A DNA stretch of 34,971 bases from a bacterium (GTDB lineage: Bacteria; Zhuqueibacterota; QNDG01; JAFGCO01). The stretch covers positions 1-34,971 of the forward strand of contig JAFGCO010000025.1 of NCBI GenBank assembly GCA_016932575.1. The letters are read 5' to 3'. A program made the translations under genes and the position numbers. Positions 21,228 to 28,046 of this stretch are shown in pieces (position 1 is the stretch's first letter; each line of letters begins with the position of its first letter). The notes beneath the pieces are model-generated. The model saw only the letters and a program-made list of their open reading frames with translations. It made no database searches and was not told where the DNA came from.

Positions 21228-21788
21228 TTACAACAAATCGCGCAACACATCCGGATGCGGATGGGTAATCAGCGTGGATCCTGCAAGCAGCCCTTCTTGC
21301 CTGAGAAATTCCAGGGACGGTCCCAGGGCCGATTTCAATGCATCAATATTGCCGGTCATCACAACCAATCCTTTACCGCCGATGGCCATGGCCACATGGA
21401 TGCGCAGCAGAACAATTTCTGCTTCTTTAACTGCAAAATCGGCCGCTTTGATGGCGGATGCCACAGAGAAGGTTTCAATAACGGCGAGGCCGTCCACTTC
21501 CGGGCTGTCCAGTGTGGTCGTTCCGGCAATGGCGGGAAAAATCCCGGCATCCACATTGGGAATCATCAGCGCGTTCACGATGGCAAATCCGCCTGTTTCC
21601 TTCGCCTGGCGGATACAGGATTCGACATCAGCAATTTCTCCCCGAACCAGAATGATATATTTTCCAGAGCATATCGTCCGGGCGAGCAGTTTTTCTATTT
21701 TTGTCATTTTCAATACGGCATCCTGAACTTCAAATCCTTTATACAGACTGGCGAGTTCAATGACGCCGATGGCGTTGGATGATTTCAT
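21228..21788 (-). CDS. pduT: BMC-T trimeric shell protein, PduT-like, with Fe-S pore Cys
   Basis: This 186-aa protein contains two BMC domains in tandem (about 5-90 and 98-180) and forms trimeric pseudohexameric tiles of the shell. It matches PduT along its length: AIGVIELASLYKGFEVQDAVLK, KLLARTICSGKYIILVRG, and in the second half LAVIETFSVASAIKAADFAVK and THPHP. Cys40 in RTICSGK corresponds to PduT Cys38 in KTICPGK, the residue that holds a [4Fe-4S] cluster in the central pore. Its ATG overlaps the stop of the PduS-like gene (ATGA), so the two are co-translated, as expected for partners in moving electrons through the shell. Confidence 0.93.
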   Translation of the reverse strand: MKSSNAIGVIELASLYKGFEVQDAVLKMTKIEKLLARTICSGKYIILVRGEIADVESCIRQAKETGGFAIVNALMIPNVDAGIFPAIAGTTTLDSPEVDGLAVIETFSVASAIKAADFAVKEAEIVLLRIHVAMAIGGKGLVVMTGNIDALKSALGPSLEFLRQEGLLAGSTLITHPHPDVLRDLL

Positions 21789-23083
21789 GTCTGCCTCTGT
21801 ATGACAATTTCACTTGCATTGATTTCTGTGATGGTTCCATTAACAGATGCATGGACCGGCACAGAAATGTCTCCGTCAGCCTCGGCGATGAGGTCGTTCT
21901 TTTGTACGTTTTGCCCTTTGGACACCACAGGTTTTGCCGGAGTGCCTATATGCTGTTTCAGGGGGATGCGTACTGTATCCGGTTCTATTTTCAGATCGTA
22001 TAACGGACCTTCGTCCCGATAGCGAATCACATCCAGGCGCTGTTTCAATTTTTCTGTCGGCACTTTTCGGAAATCCATCATCGGATGGGATTTTACCGGC
22101 AGCCCTTCCCATTTAGGCATGTCCCGGCTCAGTTTTTTTTCAATCATGGCAGCACCCCTTGGATCCAGACCTTCAGGGCAGCTGTACATGGTACAGAGGT
22201 TGCATTCGCAGCAAAAAGTATTGCCCGGATGCGCATAAGACATTTTCCCGTATGAGAACATACGATTTCGCATGGCGATCTCCGGTCGAACAGGATAACC
22301 CAACAGATATCGCGGACAAAGTTCAGTGCAAAAGCTGCACTGGTCACATGATGCTTTGGCCATGCGGTCTGTCTGAGACGGTGTATCATATCTTTTGTAC
22401 ATTGTCACGCAGGCATGATCGCCGGGGAGCAGAATGAGCCCGCCGGTTGTTTTTGTAATCACGGTTTCCATGCTTGATTCCAGAACACCCATCATTAATC
22501 CGCCGGAGCGTATTTGCACATGCCGGGCAGTGATTTCAACCTGGGATAACACATCTTTCAAAGAGGTGCCCACAGGGATTTTTACAGTAACAGGATTTCT
22601 CACTTCGCCTGCGATGGTAAGAAATTTTTCGGTCACGGGTTCTTCATGTGCCATATTGTACAATGTCTCCACATTCTGGACCACGCAACCGACGCTGATT
22701 GGTAATTCTCCCGGCTGGATGATCCGGCCTGTCGTTAAATAAACCAGTGTGACTTCATCGCCGGCAGGATAAAAATCGTCGATGGGAACAATGTCCATCA
22801 ATTGAGAAATTTTGTTTCTTATAAGGTCAATCAGCTTATGATGTTTCTTTTTGATACCGATAATACCCCGTTTGGCTCCGGTAATAGACAATGCTATCCG
22901 GAATCCCTCCATTACTGTATCTGTAAAATGTCGCAGCAGTTCTTTATCTTTATGCAGCAAAGGCTCACATTCGGCTGCATTCATGATTAAAAACTCGGGA
23001 CTGGCCTTCAGTTTAATATGGGTGGGAAATCCGGCTCCGCCTGCGCCCACGATGCCTTTATTTTTAATGTCCTGAATGGTCAT
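21785..23083 (-). CDS. pduS: PduS-like Fe-S flavoprotein (RnfC/NuoF-related NADH oxidoreductase)
   Basis: This 432-aa protein resembles PduS. An N-terminal glycine-rich loop GIVGAGGAGFPT (10-21), typical of the NADH/FMN-binding fold of complex I NuoF and RnfC, is followed by AAECEPLLHKD, a SLBB-like region, and two [4Fe-4S] motifs: CDQCSFCTELCP (Cys246, 249, 252, 256) and CCECNLCTMYSCP (Cys291, 294, 297, 302). The C-terminal part has a barrel-sandwich domain (IGTPAKPVVSKGQNVQ). In Pdu compartments PduS is a cobalamin reductase. No B12 enzyme is encoded here, so recycling NADH and passing electrons to the PduT pore cluster is the better guess. No clear ribosome site precedes ATG 23083. Confidence 0.9.
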   Translation of the reverse strand: MTIQDIKNKGIVGAGGAGFPTHIKLKASPEFLIMNAAECEPLLHKDKELLRHFTDTVMEGFRIALSITGAKRGIIGIKKKHHKLIDLIRNKISQLMDIVPIDDFYPAGDEVTLVYLTTGRIIQPGELPISVGCVVQNVETLYNMAHEEPVTEKFLTIAGEVRNPVTVKIPVGTSLKDVLSQVEITARHVQIRSGGLMMGVLESSMETVITKTTGGLILLPGDHACVTMYKRYDTPSQTDRMAKASCDQCSFCTELCPRYLLGYPVRPEIAMRNRMFSYGKMSYAHPGNTFCCECNLCTMYSCPEGLDPRGAAMIEKKLSRDMPKWEGLPVKSHPMMDFRKVPTEKLKQRLDVIRYRDEGPLYDLKIEPDTVRIPLKQHIGTPAKPVVSKGQNVQKNDLIAEADGDISVPVHASVNGTITEINASEIVIQRQT

Positions 23084-23095
23084 GGTTTTTTTATA

Positions 23096-23377
23096 TTAAC
23101 ACTTGATATCCCGGTAATCAAGATGATCCACAATAGCGACAATGAGGGTTCGTATGGGGGCCAGATCGAGTTGAAACAGGTCTCTGGCCACACCGGGTGC
23201 ACCTCCGCAAACGACTGTGTCTCCGATTCCGGCACCCACACAATCGACAGCCACCCATTCGTCACCTTTCTCAGTGCCATCCGGCAACACGGGCTGCACT
23301 ATAAATACATGCCGGTTTTGATAGGCGTCATGCTTCTCGGTTGCTGTTACAGTTTTTGTTATTTTTGCAAGAAACAT
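23096..23377 (-). CDS. BMC-P pentameric shell vertex protein
   Basis: This 93-aa protein is an EutN/CcmL-type BMC-P subunit; pentamers cap the vertices of the shell. The N-terminal strand MFLAKITKTVTATEKH, the mid DEWVAVDCVGAGIGDTVVCGGAPGVAR and the final RTLIVAIVDHLDY are typical. It is the most divergent of four paralogues here, with several Cys residues. It begins 5 bp after the previous BMC-P gene and ends 12 bp before the PduS-like gene. Confidence 0.92.
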   Translation of the reverse strand: MFLAKITKTVTATEKHDAYQNRHVFIVQPVLPDGTEKGDEWVAVDCVGAGIGDTVVCGGAPGVARDLFQLDLAPIRTLIVAIVDHLDYRDIKC

Positions 23378-23382
23378 AGGGC

Positions 23383-23646
23383 TTAATCCACATAATCTAC
23401 CAGTTCTACAATAGCTGCATTCACAGGAGCAATTCCTGAGTCAAATGCCTGGGCTGCGTCAGTGCTGGTTACATAGACAATTTTGTCTCCCACACCAGCC
23501 AGATTTTTTGGATCCGCAACGACAAGCGGGTGCCCGGTTTTCTGATTCCGGCCGGTCAGGGGTTGAGCTACAAAAAACCGGCACGATTTTAACTGAGGCA
23601 CCTTATTGGTGGCCCAGACCTGTCCGATGATTTTTCCAAGTTTCAT
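23383..23646 (-). CDS. BMC-P pentameric shell vertex protein
   Basis: This 87-aa BMC-P subunit has the classic pattern: MKLGKIIGQVWATNK at the start, KNLAGVGDKIVYVTSTDAAQAF in the middle and NAAIVELVDYVD at the end. Its ATG overlaps the stop of the preceding 104-aa BMC-P gene by 4 bp (ATGA). This is the closest of the four to canonical EutN and PduN. Confidence 0.93.
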   Translation of the reverse strand: MKLGKIIGQVWATNKVPQLKSCRFFVAQPLTGRNQKTGHPLVVADPKNLAGVGDKIVYVTSTDAAQAFDSGIAPVNAAIVELVDYVD

Positions 23647-23957
23647 TCTGGTTTTTCCTGTTTTTTCTGCGTCGAAACAGCAGCCGGATTTCTGTCGATT
23701 GTAACCTCATCAATCACAGCCATGATCACAGCATCGATGGGTGCATCTTTGGTCAGATCTGTCATTCGGGCGGCCGAACCGTAGGTGAGAAGAACAAAGT
23801 CGCCTTCACCGGCCTGAACCGCGTCTACGGCCACATGATAGGATTGGAGCGGTTTTCCGTTGTGATCCACCTGTTTGCAGAGCAACAGTTTTTTTCCTGT
23901 GAGTTTAGGATCCTTTTGCGTGGAAACCACCGTACCAATGACTTTTGCGAAAATCAT
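23643..23957 (-). CDS. BMC-P pentameric shell vertex protein with polar tail
   Basis: This is a 104-aa BMC-P subunit: MIFAKVIGTVVSTQKD, VAVDAVQAGEGDFVLLTYGSAAR and APIDAVIMAVIDEVTI. About 15 extra C-terminal residues (NPAAVSTQKKQEKPE) are polar and likely disordered. Its stop overlaps the next BMC-P start, so the two are translated together. Tail function is unknown. Confidence 0.92.
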   Translation of the reverse strand: MIFAKVIGTVVSTQKDPKLTGKKLLLCKQVDHNGKPLQSYHVAVDAVQAGEGDFVLLTYGSAARMTDLTKDAPIDAVIMAVIDEVTIDRNPAAVSTQKKQEKPE

Positions 23958-24110: not shown

Positions 24111-24386
24111 CTATTTCTTCCAGGTGGTTTTCAGTTCATCCACAGGTCTGGGAATCACGATTTCGGAAATCAAGTTTCCCACTGATGCGGCTGCAGTTCT
24201 TCCCGCTTCAATGGCTGACCGGACAGCAGCCACTTCGCCTTCAATGACAAAAGACACATACCCGTGCCCGATTTTGCGCCATTCGATCACGTTGACATTG
24301 GCTGCTTTGACGGCGGCGTCTGCGCCTTCAATAAGGCCAACAAATCCGTCGGTTTCAAGAACGCCAATTGATTTAATGGTTGGCAT
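24111..24386 (-). CDS. BMC-H hexameric shell protein (pore motif IGHG)
   Basis: This 91-aa single BMC-domain protein forms hexameric facets of the shell. It has SIGVLETDGFVGLIEGADAAVKAANV, then KIGHGYVSFVIEGEVAAVRSAIEAG, and ends IVIPRPVDELKTTWKK. The pore-loop motif carries His where the other two BMC-H proteins have Ser or Gly, which should alter pore chemistry. AGGAG is 8 nt before ATG 24386. Confidence 0.94.
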   Translation of the reverse strand: MPTIKSIGVLETDGFVGLIEGADAAVKAANVNVIEWRKIGHGYVSFVIEGEVAAVRSAIEAGRTAAASVGNLISEIVIPRPVDELKTTWKK

Positions 24387-24542: not shown

Positions 24543-25970
24543 TTATGTGAATCTGAATGAGCCAACATTCATAATCCTTCTGATCCGGGTAAAGTGTCTG
24601 GGGCGGGTGATGCCTTCTCCGGTGGGTGAAGCGATCGTATACGAAAGTATGCCCTCGCCATCTTTCCCGCCGTCTCCCTGATAAGTACCGCCGTTTATGA
24701 CAAAAATCGCGCAATTCGATCGCTTTGCAAAATCGGTGGCCCGGTTCATATCCTTTGTAAACATGCTTGCCGTGTGATGATACCCATGTTCCGCTTCAAG
24801 GGCCCATTGAACGCCCTGTTCGTAGCTGCTGACTTTTACTACGGGAATAAACGGCATCATCTGCTCTTCCCGGACAAAAATATGGTCCTTGCGCGTTTCT
24901 CCGAACAGCAGGCTCACATCATCCGAAACGTTCAGCCCGATTGACTTGGCGAGAACACTTGCATTTCTTCCGACCAGGTCACGGCTGACAATATGCAGAT
25001 ATTTTTTCTTTTCAAAAGCCTTTTCTGCGAGTTGCTCAATCTGATTTGTATTGAGCTGAACGTTTTTCTGATTTTTCATGGCCTGCATAAAACCTGAAAA
25101 CACGCTTTCAATAACAAATATCTCTTTTTCAGCGGTGCAGAGGATGTTGTTGTCAAAGCCGGCGCTCAGTGTGATCCGCTCGGCAGCATACTCAAGATCG
25201 GCGGATTCATCAATAATCACCGGCGGATTGCCCGGCCCTGCAGCGATCACCTTTTTTTGAGTTTTCATGGCCGCCCGGACGACCGCAGGTCCGCCTGTGA
25301 TAGACAGCAATGCCACTTTATCGTGATGAAACACCTCATTGACTTTATCCAGACTGGGATCTTTGATTGAGCAAACCAGATTTTCCGGTGCACCGGCTTC
25401 TGTCAGCACCGCATTCATTTTTTTCACTGTATAATTTGATACATTTTTTGCAGATGGGTGCGGACAAAAGATGACCGAATTTCCGGCAGCAAGCATCATA
25501 ATAGCGTTATTGATCATGGTTTCGCTTGGATGCGTACTGGGTGTGATGGCGCCGATGATTCCATAGGGTGCGTATTCTTCCAAAGCGAGACCATTCTTGC
25601 CGGACCACGCTGTGGTCTCCAGATTTTCAATGCCGGGGGTTTCTGTCGCAGCGACCTGATGCTTGAGCAGTTTGTCCTGATAGCGGCCCATCCCGGTTTC
25701 TTCAAAAACCATTCGGGAGAGTTCTTCCTGTCTTTCAAGACCCATTTTCCGAATGGCGTCAATGAATATTTTTCTGTCCTGCAGTCCAAATTTTTGATAT
25801 GCCTCAAAAGCCTTTTCTGCCGCGTCGATTGCGTCGCTGACATTTTCGAACACACCCTCTTGATTCCCGGTATCAGGATTGAAACAGGATGGATCGATTC
25901 CTGGCTGAGGCGCCATGTTTTCAACCACACGGCGAACGATGGTGCTGATCTGTTCTTCAGTGAAGTCCAC
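24543..25970 (-). CDS. CoA-acylating aldehyde dehydrogenase with N-terminal encapsulation peptide (PduP-like)
   Basis: This 475-aa enzyme oxidises an aldehyde with NAD+ and CoA to an acyl-CoA; here the aldehyde should be L-lactaldehyde. Residues 1-20 (DFTEEQISTIVRRVVENM) form an amphipathic helix typical of BMC encapsulation peptides. The ALDH fold follows, with APYGIIGAITPSTHPSETMINNAI, GNSVIFCPHPSAK, ALLSITGGPAVV and AGPGNPPVIID. The catalytic Cys is Cys278 in NNILCTAEKE, as in PduP and EutE. The start is GTG 25970, with GGAG about 9 nt upstream; it follows a BMC-H gene by 12 bp. It is lumenal by inference, so its NADH must be recycled inside or its electrons exported. Confidence 0.92.
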   Translation of the reverse strand: MDFTEEQISTIVRRVVENMAPQPGIDPSCFNPDTGNQEGVFENVSDAIDAAEKAFEAYQKFGLQDRKIFIDAIRKMGLERQEELSRMVFEETGMGRYQDKLLKHQVAATETPGIENLETTAWSGKNGLALEEYAPYGIIGAITPSTHPSETMINNAIMMLAAGNSVIFCPHPSAKNVSNYTVKKMNAVLTEAGAPENLVCSIKDPSLDKVNEVFHHDKVALLSITGGPAVVRAAMKTQKKVIAAGPGNPPVIIDESADLEYAAERITLSAGFDNNILCTAEKEIFVIESVFSGFMQAMKNQKNVQLNTNQIEQLAEKAFEKKKYLHIVSRDLVGRNASVLAKSIGLNVSDDVSLLFGETRKDHIFVREEQMMPFIPVVKVSSYEQGVQWALEAEHGYHHTASMFTKDMNRATDFAKRSNCAIFVINGGTYQGDGGKDGEGILSYTIASPTGEGITRPRHFTRIRRIMNVGSFRFT

Positions 25971-25982
25971 TGGACAGTTCTC

Positions 25983-26276
25983 CTACGCTTTTTTCTCTTT
26001 GGGTTGAATTTCTTTAAAGACCGGAATCAGTTTTTGAGAAGGTCTCGGAATGACTGTCTGGCTGAGCACCTGGCCGATTTGCGAGGCTGATGCCACACCC
26101 GCTTCCACTGCAGCCTTGACCGCCGCGACATCACCTCTTACAATAATATTGGCCTTGCCGCCTCCGGCAATCAGATAATCAGCCAGCTTCACATTGGCCG
26201 CTTTGACAGCTGCGTCGGCTGCCTCAATGGCCGTGGCCAGTCCCATGGTTTCTATAACTCCCAGTGCGTCCTGCAT
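25983..26276 (-). CDS. BMC-H hexameric shell protein (pore motif AGGGK)
   Basis: This 97-aa BMC-H protein begins MQDALGVIETMGLATAIEAADAAVKAANV. The pore region is LIAGGGKANIIVRGDVAAVKAAVEAG, giving a Gly-rich pore. A charged C-terminal tail (FKEIQPKEKKA) extends past the domain. I place the start at ATG 26276, because GGAGG lies just upstream (GAAGGAGGAATCATG) and the 18 extra upstream codons have no BMC similarity. Confidence 0.94.
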   Translation of the reverse strand: MQDALGVIETMGLATAIEAADAAVKAANVKLADYLIAGGGKANIIVRGDVAAVKAAVEAGVASASQIGQVLSQTVIPRPSQKLIPVFKEIQPKEKKA

Positions 26277-26292
26277 GATTCCTCCTTCACGA

Positions 26293-26571
26293 CTATTTTT
26301 TAATTCCGAGCATTTGAAAGACATCCTCATGAGCCGACGGGATCACATTGGAACATATCAGCTCGCCGACTTTGGCGGCTGCTTCTGATCCGGCTTCGAC
26401 TGAGGATTTTACGGCCCCGACCTCACCACGTACAACAGCGGTGACCAAACCGCTTCCGATCTGGTGCTTTCCAACGAGATCCACATTGGCCGTTTTTATC
26501 ATTGCATCTATCGCAATGATATTACCGGTATTGGACCGGGTTTCAACAAATCCTAATGCAACACCTGGCAT
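26293..26571 (-). CDS. BMC-H hexameric shell protein (pore motif IGSG)
   Basis: This 92-aa BMC-H protein begins MPGVALGFVETRSNTGNIIAIDAMIKTANV and has the common pore motif QIGSGLVTAVVRGEVGAVKSSVEAG. The start ATG 26571 is fixed by GGAGG 5 nt upstream. A TTG four codons earlier is unlikely. It begins 12 bp after the small PduM-like gene and ends 16 bp before the next BMC-H gene. Confidence 0.94.
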   Translation of the reverse strand: MPGVALGFVETRSNTGNIIAIDAMIKTANVDLVGKHQIGSGLVTAVVRGEVGAVKSSVEAGSEAAAKVGELICSNVIPSAHEDVFQMLGIKK

Positions 26572-26583
26572 GGCTGCCTCCAA

Positions 26584-26889
26584 TCAGTTGATTGTTATTT
26601 TTATTCTCTTTTCCCTTAATAATTCTCTTGCTTTGGGCGTAATGACAGTTCCTTCGGGGATGACGACTTCTCCTGTTAATTCATGTAGTCTTTGAATATG
26701 ATTTTCAGTCAGGATCGGTGTTTTGTATTTGGACATATCCGGTTTTTCGATCCGCGTCTGATGAATACTGTTTTGGTTTTGTGATGCAAGGGTTCCGTCT
26801 TTTACCAAAATGGTTATATTCTGGCGGCTGAGTTCCCGGATGACTTCACGGGTTATTTTCCGAATTAATTCTTCAATCGCTATCTGCAT
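26584..26889 (-). CDS. Small BMC-associated protein, PduM-like, unknown function
   Basis: This is a 101-aa protein of no family I can name with certainty. Residues 1-24 (MQIAIEELIRKITREVIREL) make a charged amphipathic helix like BMC encapsulation peptides. A polar low-complexity linker (about 32-50) follows. The C-terminal 45 residues (LTGEVVIPEGTVITPKARELL then REKRIKITIN) resemble the ends of PduM and the N-terminal parts of EutT and EutQ, which share a T-P-x-A-x-E-hydrophobic pattern before a short Ile-rich strand. Its place inside the shell operon, 12 bp before a BMC-H gene and 113 bp after a BMC-P gene, supports a role in assembly or cargo binding. No clear ribosome site is seen. Confidence 0.8.
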   Translation of the reverse strand: MQIAIEELIRKITREVIRELSRQNITILVKDGTLASQNQNSIHQTRIEKPDMSKYKTPILTENHIQRLHELTGEVVIPEGTVITPKARELLREKRIKITIN

Positions 26890-27002: not shown

Positions 27003-27290
27003 TTATCTTTTAAACCAGTCTCTTTTTTTGCCTGATACAGTCTCCACGATGCCCACAATCGAATTGTCTGTGCTGGTTCCTTTTGTTTTGGATGTCATCC
27101 TGGCGGATGACGATGAACATACCAGTACAATATCATCCAACCGGGCATTCACAGTATCTGTGCTGGTTATTGTTTTACCGGTGGGCTTCAGTTTTTCATC
27201 CAATTGATCGACAATGAGAAGGCGGAGGCCCTCCAGTTTGCCTTCCTTGCGCGTTGAAACAACCTGACCGATGACTTTTGCGAATTGCAT
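27003..27290 (-). CDS. BMC-P pentameric shell vertex protein with basic tail
   Basis: This is a 95-aa BMC-P subunit: MQFAKVIGQVVSTRKEGKLEGLRLLIVDQLD, TVNARLDDIVLVCSSSSARMT and NSIVGIVETVSG. The C-terminus adds a short basic end (KKRDWFKR). It is separated from the other three BMC-P genes and lies 9 bp after pduL. GAGGG precedes ATG 27290 by about 5 nt. Confidence 0.92.
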   Translation of the reverse strand: MQFAKVIGQVVSTRKEGKLEGLRLLIVDQLDEKLKPTGKTITSTDTVNARLDDIVLVCSSSSARMTSKTKGTSTDNSIVGIVETVSGKKRDWFKR

Positions 27291-27299
27291 GGTACCCTC

Positions 27300-28046
27300 T
27301 TACATTTTGCCCAGAAATTCCGCCTGCATGCCACAAATTGTGCCGGTTGCATTGGCCTCATCCGTATCCAGATGCAGCTGCAGTTTCCATGAATCATTGA
27401 TGCGTATCCGAATGTTTTCATAAACTGTCGGTTTATCTCCATGGAGACGCACGCGGCATAAATCCCCGTCTTTTACGCCCAGTTTTTCTGCGTCGCTGCC
27501 GGGCATATGAATGTGCCGGCTGGCAATGATAGCGCAATGCGGAAGATACACAGATCCGGCAGGGCCCACCAGGGTGAGCGGTGCTGCCCCATCGAGATTG
27601 CCCGAATCATTCACCGGCGGATTGATGCCCAGGACAATGGCATCTGTTTTGGCCAGTTCGACCTGATCATACTGGCGTATAGGACCGAGGATTCGTACGC
27701 TTTGAATTGCACGCATTTTTGCGCCGACAATGGTAACCGTTTGTTTTGCAGCAAAATCATTGGGCTGATACAATTGACGATATTTATCGAGAACTGATCC
27801 TTCCCCGAACAGGTTATCCAGGGTCTGCTGTGTTATATGGATATGACGATTGGAAACTCCCAGCGGAACCATCGGATTGAAAGAAGCCGACGCCGGTGTT
27901 TGATCTTTTTTAAGGGTTCGGACAATTTCTTCAACGACCGTTTCAACAAAACGGGAGTCCATGCCCGAAGCATTCTGATCGGGGAAGCGGGCGGCGCATG
28001 CACCGCATTCCTGACAGTAGGAGGCAAGACCTTTCTGGTTTACCAT
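27300..28046 (-). CDS. pduL: PduL-type phosphotransacylase with Cys-motif N-terminus
   Basis: This 248-aa zinc enzyme converts acyl-CoA and phosphate to acyl-phosphate and CoA, recycling CoA in the lumen. The two PduL beta-barrel halves carry metal ligands SNRHIH (His68, His70), SRHIH (His178, His180) and QLHLD (His225). The N-terminus is unusual: a CX2CX2C motif (Cys11, Cys14, Cys17) comes before a typical encapsulation helix (about 30-47, SRFVETVVEEIVRTLKK). The Cys motif could bind metal or form disulfides; its role is unknown. AGGAT lies 7 nt before ATG 28046, and the gene is 17 bp after sorC. In this pathway its substrate is expected to be lactyl-CoA. Confidence 0.93.
   Translation of the reverse strand: MVNQKGLASYCQECGACAARFPDQNASGMDSRFVETVVEEIVRTLKKDQTPASASFNPMVPLGVSNRHIHITQQTLDNLFGEGSVLDKYRQLYQPNDFAAKQTVTIVGAKMRAIQSVRILGPIRQYDQVELAKTDAIVLGINPPVNDSGNLDGAAPLTLVGPAGSVYLPHCAIIASRHIHMPGSDAEKLGVKDGDLCRVRLHGDKPTVYENIRIRINDSWKLQLHLDTDEANATGTICGMQAEFLGKM

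Follow-up and report, generated by a model that had tools for sequence, protein, structure and literature searches.

The microcompartment operon and the X101 gene

The sequence analysed here (the window) is a stretch of 34,971 nt, positions 1-34,971 of the forward strand of contig JAFGCO010000025.1 in assembly GCA_016932575.1, and its GTDB lineage is Bacteria; Zhuqueibacterota; QNDG01; JAFGCO01. Candidate division KSB1 is among the named relatives of the source phylum. The window contains a single bacterial microcompartment (BMC) operon, on the minus strand, which begins with a SorC-type regulator, PduL, BMC-P, a small protein designated X101, two BMC-H and a CoA-acylating aldehyde dehydrogenase, continues with BMC-H, three BMC-P, a PduS/RnfC-like protein and BMC-T, and ends with a GlcD-like oxidase, class II aldolase, AckA, LarA, FucI and rhamnulokinase. 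This gene content is that of a fucose/rhamnose (PVM-like) compartment. The whole genome has one BMC system, and its five PF00936 matches are all explained by this operon (three BMC-H and the two-domain BMC-T). The relevant features are as follows.

26584..26889, minus strand: X101, putative two-ended linker protein of 101 aa, stop included in the coordinates (ORF, orthologues at the same locus position, dN/dS about 0.12)
26824..26877, minus strand: X101 residues 5-22, predicted amphipathic helix resembling an encapsulation peptide (AlphaFold2 model, helical moment)
26740..26823, minus strand: X101 residues 23-50, predicted flexible linker (pLDDT<50 at residues 30-42, low identity)
26587..26739, minus strand: X101 residues 51-101, module common to several BMC families (profile searches, identity)
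27300..28046, minus strand: PduL phosphotransacylase with a Cys-rich N-end and helical encapsulation peptide, upstream neighbour (domain and profile matches)
27003..27290, minus strand: BMC-P pentamer protein (P4), immediately upstream of X101 (Pfam)
26293..26583, minus strand: BMC-H hexamer protein (H3), immediately downstream of X101, its likelier start being the ATG at 26571
25983..26330, minus strand: BMC-H hexamer protein (H2); the true start is likely near 26276
24543..25970, minus strand: CoA-acylating aldehyde dehydrogenase with a helical N-terminal encapsulation peptide, candidate cargo partner
24111..24386, minus strand: BMC-H hexamer protein (H1)
23096..23957, minus strand: three BMC-P in a row (P3, P2, P1), assigned by translation and by conserved order in relatives; of the operon's BMC-P proteins the Pfam scan covered P4 alone
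21785..23083, minus strand: RnfC/PduS-like electron-transfer protein (domain matches)
21228..21788, minus strand: BMC-T tandem-domain shell protein without a PduB-like N-terminal extension, candidate shell partner

The window also carries GIY-YIG-like and integrase-like ORFs at 199-1367, separate from the BMC operon. In the operon's PduL (27300-28046, minus strand) a Cys-rich stretch, CQECGACAARFPD, precedes the encapsulation helix; a stretch of this kind is also found in the PduL of several X101 loci (L009, L010, L123) and of L106, and is possibly a metal or Fe-S site.

X101 is read on the minus strand from an ATG start, spans 26889-26584 and encodes 101 aa. Orthologues are found in 15 species, comprising KSB1-type bacteria, Ignavibacteria, Kryptoniota and one Phycisphaerae; within the source phylum they occur in 10 genomes (its own genome counted), and outside it on contigs of a Phycisphaerae bacterium, of Ignavibacteriales and their relatives, and of Kryptoniota. 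In nearly all 15 species the locus order is PduL - BMC-P - X101 - BMC-H - BMC-H - AldDH. The Phycisphaerae locus (L123) keeps X101, with no BMC-P4 detected beside it. Comparison with the nearest orthologue gives a dN of 0.27, a dS of 2.2 and hence a dN/dS of about 0.12; X101 is a real gene under purifying selection. The initial annotation, made from the sequence alone, had staked its reading partly on conservation of the gene in related BMC loci, and that conservation, at the same place in 15 species, is what is found.

Identity to the nearest orthologue is 72% over residues 1-25, 20% over residues 26-50 and 84% over residues 51-101; both ends of the protein are therefore constrained and its middle is not. 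An AlphaFold2 model built with 12 orthologues predicts a helix at residues 5-22, disorder at residues 30-42 (pLDDT<50) and a folded C-terminal part. Overall pLDDT is 73, with values of 82-88 over residues 61-100, and because pTM is 0.44 the model does not predict the relative placement of the two ends. The N-terminal helix is amphipathic (moment 0.92, shuffle p=0.002), a property that is significant in X101 itself and not in every orthologue. An amphipathic helix and a flexible linker had both been proposed by the initial annotation, and both proposals hold with that proviso. A Pfam scan of X101 gave no usable match, and a sequence search of the PDB gave nothing for X101 and insignificant matches only for the C-terminal part alone.

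A module common to several microcompartment families

The last ~47 residues of X101 constitute a module that is common to the C-ends of PduM and TIGR02536 and to the N-ends of EutT and EutQ. In hmmscan searches the C-terminal part of X101 matches TIGR02536 (E=1.2e-5), EutT (0.014) and PduM (0.025), and orthologue L002 matches the N-end of EutQ (E=0.015), with all matches of X101 and its orthologues to these families lying far below the curated cut-offs. A profile was built from nine X101 sequences, taking their last 47 residues, and searched against the 1262 ORFs of a set of loci. In its first pass this X101-only profile finds PduL C-ends, RpiB N-ends, TIGR02536 of Listeria (7.8e-8) and EutT of Listeria, C. 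difficile, Cetobacterium and E. coli, together with weaker matches to PduM, EutQ and a flavoprotein. Three rounds of iteration make nearly all family matches strongly significant and bring no unrelated ORF below E 0.05; matches to sigma factors that appeared in the first pass are gone after iteration.

Because iteration can be circular, leave-one-family-out runs were made with about 5000 shuffled or reversed decoys, the best of which reached only E>=1. A profile built without PduM recovers PduM at 1.6e-5 (Salmonella), and one built without EutQ recovers EutQ at 1.8e-6 (Enterococcus) and 1.5e-4 (E. coli), the last being among the weaker left-out matches; two EutQ of the source phylum are missed by the EutQ-less profile (E 3.6 and 31). 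The other left-out families are recovered at 1.3e-13 (TIGR02536), 4e-7 (EutT), 4e-7 (flavoprotein) and 3.7e-11 (X101). Comparison of full-length profiles by hhalign gives 9e-10 for EutT, 8e-6 for TIGR02536, 5e-5 for PduM and 2e-4 for EutQ, against 0.74 for an unrelated regulator used as a control. Thus the resemblance of the C-terminal motif to the end of PduM and to the starts of EutT and EutQ, first put forward from its pattern of residues and with profile similarity to these families named as its test, is upheld by three kinds of search. The consensus of 132 distinct copies of the module is xkxliTExdvxxaxxxxxxixvxxxxiiTPaArdxaxxxxixixx.

A Foldseek search returned nothing below E=0.25. A likeness to the Cas1 N-terminal domain (VIA-align Z about 5, rmsd 2.2 over 55 residues) was rejected as a level common for unrelated models, and in view of such weak fold matches no fold is claimed for the module. 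It also resembles, in permuted order, the peripheral subunit-binding (E3_binding) motif of the 2-oxoacid dehydrogenase E2; PF02817 matches the C-end of the PduL of L011 (L011:1162-1932) at E=8.5e-4, and PDB matches are weak. This likeness is a lead only, since the predicted module has strands, which are absent from such domains. Two further observations concern the searched loci: the NF007991 (EutA) model matches an EutQ N-end at 1.6e-9 (L028:18303-19004), a sign that the model may be mis-built or its seed sequences fused, and in Cetobacterium the N-end of an 88-aa hypothetical protein following eutN (L037:11488-11754) matches the module weakly (E=0.003).

Judged by the curated cut-offs, X101 belongs to none of PduM, EutQ, EutT and TIGR02536, and on profile evidence it shares one module with them. 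PduM (TIGR04493 / NF011957, PF15953) has the C-terminal module, like X101, and an N-terminal encapsulation-type helix to which the predicted amphipathic helix of X101 may correspond; its gene adjoins pduL and the BMC-P gene pduN much as X101 adjoins PduL and BMC-P, and its role in assembly is known in Salmonella; however, roughly 75-100 residues in the middle of PduM have no counterpart in X101, and X101 scores 14.5 bits with its model (cut-off 50), matching the C-terminal 39 model positions only. TIGR02536 of Gram-positive eut operons, encoded between eutD (PduL type) and eutN, likewise combines an N-terminal helix with the C-terminal module but is longer in the middle by about 110 residues, and X101 scores 25 bits over positions 155-206 of its model (cut-off 152.6). 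In EutQ (PF06249, NF012001), residues 1-99 comprise the module, a flexible linker and encapsulation-peptide-like helices, a region for which coupling of shell and cargo has been demonstrated. Their order is reversed relative to X101, the module being N-terminal in EutQ and C-terminal in X101, and a cupin acetate-kinase domain follows that X101 does not have (no PF06249 cupin match by Pfam scan). The first 45 or so residues of EutT, the ethanolamine cobalamin adenosyltransferase (NF011595, PF01923), are the module; unlike X101, EutT has no encapsulation helix and continues with an adenosyltransferase domain, for which the Pfam scan of X101 gave no PF01923 match. CcmN, CsoS2 and residues 1-37 of PduB couple cargo to shell in other microcompartments and can be likened to X101 by its proposed function, although their architectures differ. 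X101 fits the pattern of linker-class genes, with its place in a BMC operon, two conserved ends and a variable linker.

Distribution and architectures of the module

The phylogenetic distribution of the module was surveyed in 388 whole genomes, 82 of the source phylum and 306 of other phyla. The module is almost confined to genomes with microcompartments: BMC shell genes are present in 93 of the 95 genomes that possess it, and of the 251 genomes without such genes 249 lack the module as well (p about 1e-52, a value that overstates the number of independent events because the surveyed genomes are related, the positives nonetheless spanning many families and phyla). Outside the source phylum, all module-positive genomes (42 of 42) have shell genes. 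The module is not universal, since 44 BMC genomes of the survey have no detectable copy. One of the two exceptions is a module-RpiB protein in a fragmented genome without shell genes (G061) whose relatives have compartments; the other is translation factor IF-2 in a genome without microcompartments (G016), which lies at the threshold (E=9.5e-4) and was treated as false.

The IF-2 match and the shortness of the motif are what could be said for putting the similarity down to chance, as a short motif of little information might allow, or for regarding the ORF itself as spurious. This explanation has a negligible likelihood and is refuted by the dN/dS, by the fixed locus position in 15 species and by the recovery of left-out families against decoys.

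Stand-alone helix-linker-module proteins of 80-115 aa include X101, a 115-aa relative encoded between BMC-P and PduS, and further examples in L135, L136, L140, L142, L146, L148, L155 and L169. The locus position of the 115-aa protein may also be occupied by a helix-module-RpiB protein; a comparison of loci L104, L106, L108, L109, L110 and L115 shows one position at which such RpiB-like fusions, with a diverged RpiB part, stand in for the stand-alone linker of some species. On enzymes the module occurs as module-RpiB, RpiB-module, PduL-module and flavoprotein-module, as well as in EutT and EutQ; the flavoprotein belongs to propanediol and glycyl-radical loci and carries the module at its end. 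Two proteins of 161-163 aa in BMC loci have two copies each (L150:3242-3727 and L157:3995-4486), with a helix-like stretch preceding each copy, and are possibly bivalent linkers. PduL on one side and a BMC-P gene on the other flank PduM, TIGR02536 and the flavoprotein in named operons of the pdu, eut and glycyl-radical types, a neighbourhood that they share with X101 and that points to function. In Gram-positive and fusobacterial eut operons (L029, L035, L037) the module is missing from EutQ and is found on EutT and on TIGR02536 or its substitute, a hypothetical protein.

PduL allows the module to be compared with the encapsulation peptide among 31 distinct sequences, 16 with a C-terminal module and 15 without. 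In those with the module 7-13 residues precede the conserved start, apart from two that read 24 and 41 residues and look like mis-called starts, whereas those without it have 24-64 residues, helical encapsulation peptide included (p=1e-5). It thus looks as though, in PduL, the module substitutes for the encapsulation peptide.

The fusion of the module to enzymes of differing chemistry (PduL, RpiB, EutT, EutQ) could be taken as the mark of a small domain that regulates or senses a cofactor, with X101 as an encapsulated regulator free of any structural role. This is highly unlikely, given that the module is nearly restricted to genomes with microcompartments, that all fold matches are weak and none suggests ligand binding, and that deletion of EutQ residues 9-41, which correspond to the module in the present alignment, results in an assembly defect (PMC12487888).

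A candidate link between enzyme core and shell

Published experiments on two module-bearing proteins bear on the function of X101. In Salmonella EutQ, residues 9-41 are required for shell attachment, and EutC and EutE attach by their encapsulation peptides to residues 62-99. Helices H1/H2 are shell-binding, and H3/H4, which resemble the N-end of X101, are encapsulation-peptide-binding; the N-terminal 99 residues suffice to target GFP to the compartment (PMC12487888). In PduM, residues 1-23 are an encapsulation peptide, and the protein lacking them is still weakly compartment-associated (PMC12108088). Loss of PduM partially separates shell and core (PMC12108088; PMC9132943); its homologues are described as confined to Pdu compartments, and how it works as unclear (PMC12108088). 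The EutQ paper (PMC12487888) does not mention PduM, nor the PduM paper (PMC12108088) EutQ, and among open-access journal papers on bacterial microcompartments none was found in which PduM, EutQ and EutT occur together.

X101 is best read, from its sequence relationships, as a stripped-down PduM or EutQ N-terminus, that is, as the two ends of EutQ 1-99, exchanged in order, or as PduM minus its middle. By analogy with these proteins, X101 is probably (at a probability of roughly 0.7) a minimal, enzyme-free linker by which the shell of a sugar-degrading microcompartment is held to its enzyme core. In this model the amphipathic helix at the N-terminus would join the bundle of cargo encapsulation peptides (aldehyde dehydrogenase, PduL, aldolase), about 30 residues of flexible linker would come next, and the 47-residue module would dock on the inner shell face, most likely at the junction of BMC-H and BMC-T tiles, as proposed for the EutQ module. 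X101 is the prime candidate for such a linker here because it is the only module copy in its genome and because the BMC-T lacks a PduB-like N-terminal extension. The initial annotation had suggested that the protein might link cargo to shell; this idea agrees with the published functions of the EutQ region (PMC12487888) and of PduM (PMC9132943, PMC12108088), and with the lack of an encapsulation peptide in module-bearing PduL, from which binding of cargo by the X101 helix and of shell by its module may be inferred. Since encapsulation peptides are able to bind grooves between hexamers (PMC11157265), the X101 helix might also touch the shell.

What the module binds, be it BMC-P, a core protein or the junction of BMC-H and BMC-T, is here inferred from EutQ. 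Binding to a core enzyme or other core protein, which would make X101 a core-condensing scaffold, would accord with the stronger binding of EutQ to cargo than at its other end (PMC12487888) and with the behaviour of PduM in Salmonella without PduB 1-37, where it stays with the detached core and not with the shell (PMC9132943). Yet EutQ without residues 62-99 goes to the shell and EutQ without residues 9-41 stays with the cargo (PMC12487888), which places the shell end at the module, and the absence of an encapsulation peptide from module-bearing PduL is what would be expected of a compartment address, though core binding would fit that too. Core binding is accordingly improbable, and the location of PduM in the PduB mutant may mean that the module binds the shell weakly or through PduB. 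It is equally doubtful that the module is a ligand of BMC-P and not of BMC-H or BMC-T, with X101 tying the core specifically to pentamers at the shell vertices. A BMC-P gene does adjoin the genes for X101, PduM, TIGR02536, the flavoprotein and the 115-aa relative, but eutQ and eutT of E. coli do not adjoin eutN, the Phycisphaerae locus keeps X101 where no BMC-P4 was detected beside it, and EutQ binding was mapped to EutM and EutL and not to EutN (PMC12487888).

Beyond X101, the odds lean slightly towards the module being a widespread metabolosome shell-docking tag, a second address besides the encapsulation peptide. It would be used alone on PduL, RpiB, EutT, EutQ and the flavoprotein, and combined with a helix in the two-headed adaptors of 80-115 aa, in PduM and in TIGR02536, providing one mechanism of core-shell coupling for Pdu, Eut, glycyl-radical, RpiB-containing and fragmented BMC types.

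As the simplest form of this device, X101 is a clean subject for structural and binding work, and it could possibly serve as a tag for loading cargo into engineered shells. According to the EutQ study, Gram-positive Eut compartments must assemble differently, since their EutQ is without the N-terminal helices (PMC12487888). How they do so is a question to which TIGR02536, with its helix and module, offers a possible answer. The module thus joins the case of PduM and that of Gram-positive Eut, its carriers being PduM in the one and TIGR02536, but not EutQ, in the other. X101 may explain what PduM does, and it gives the assembly of both kinds of compartment a testable mechanism.
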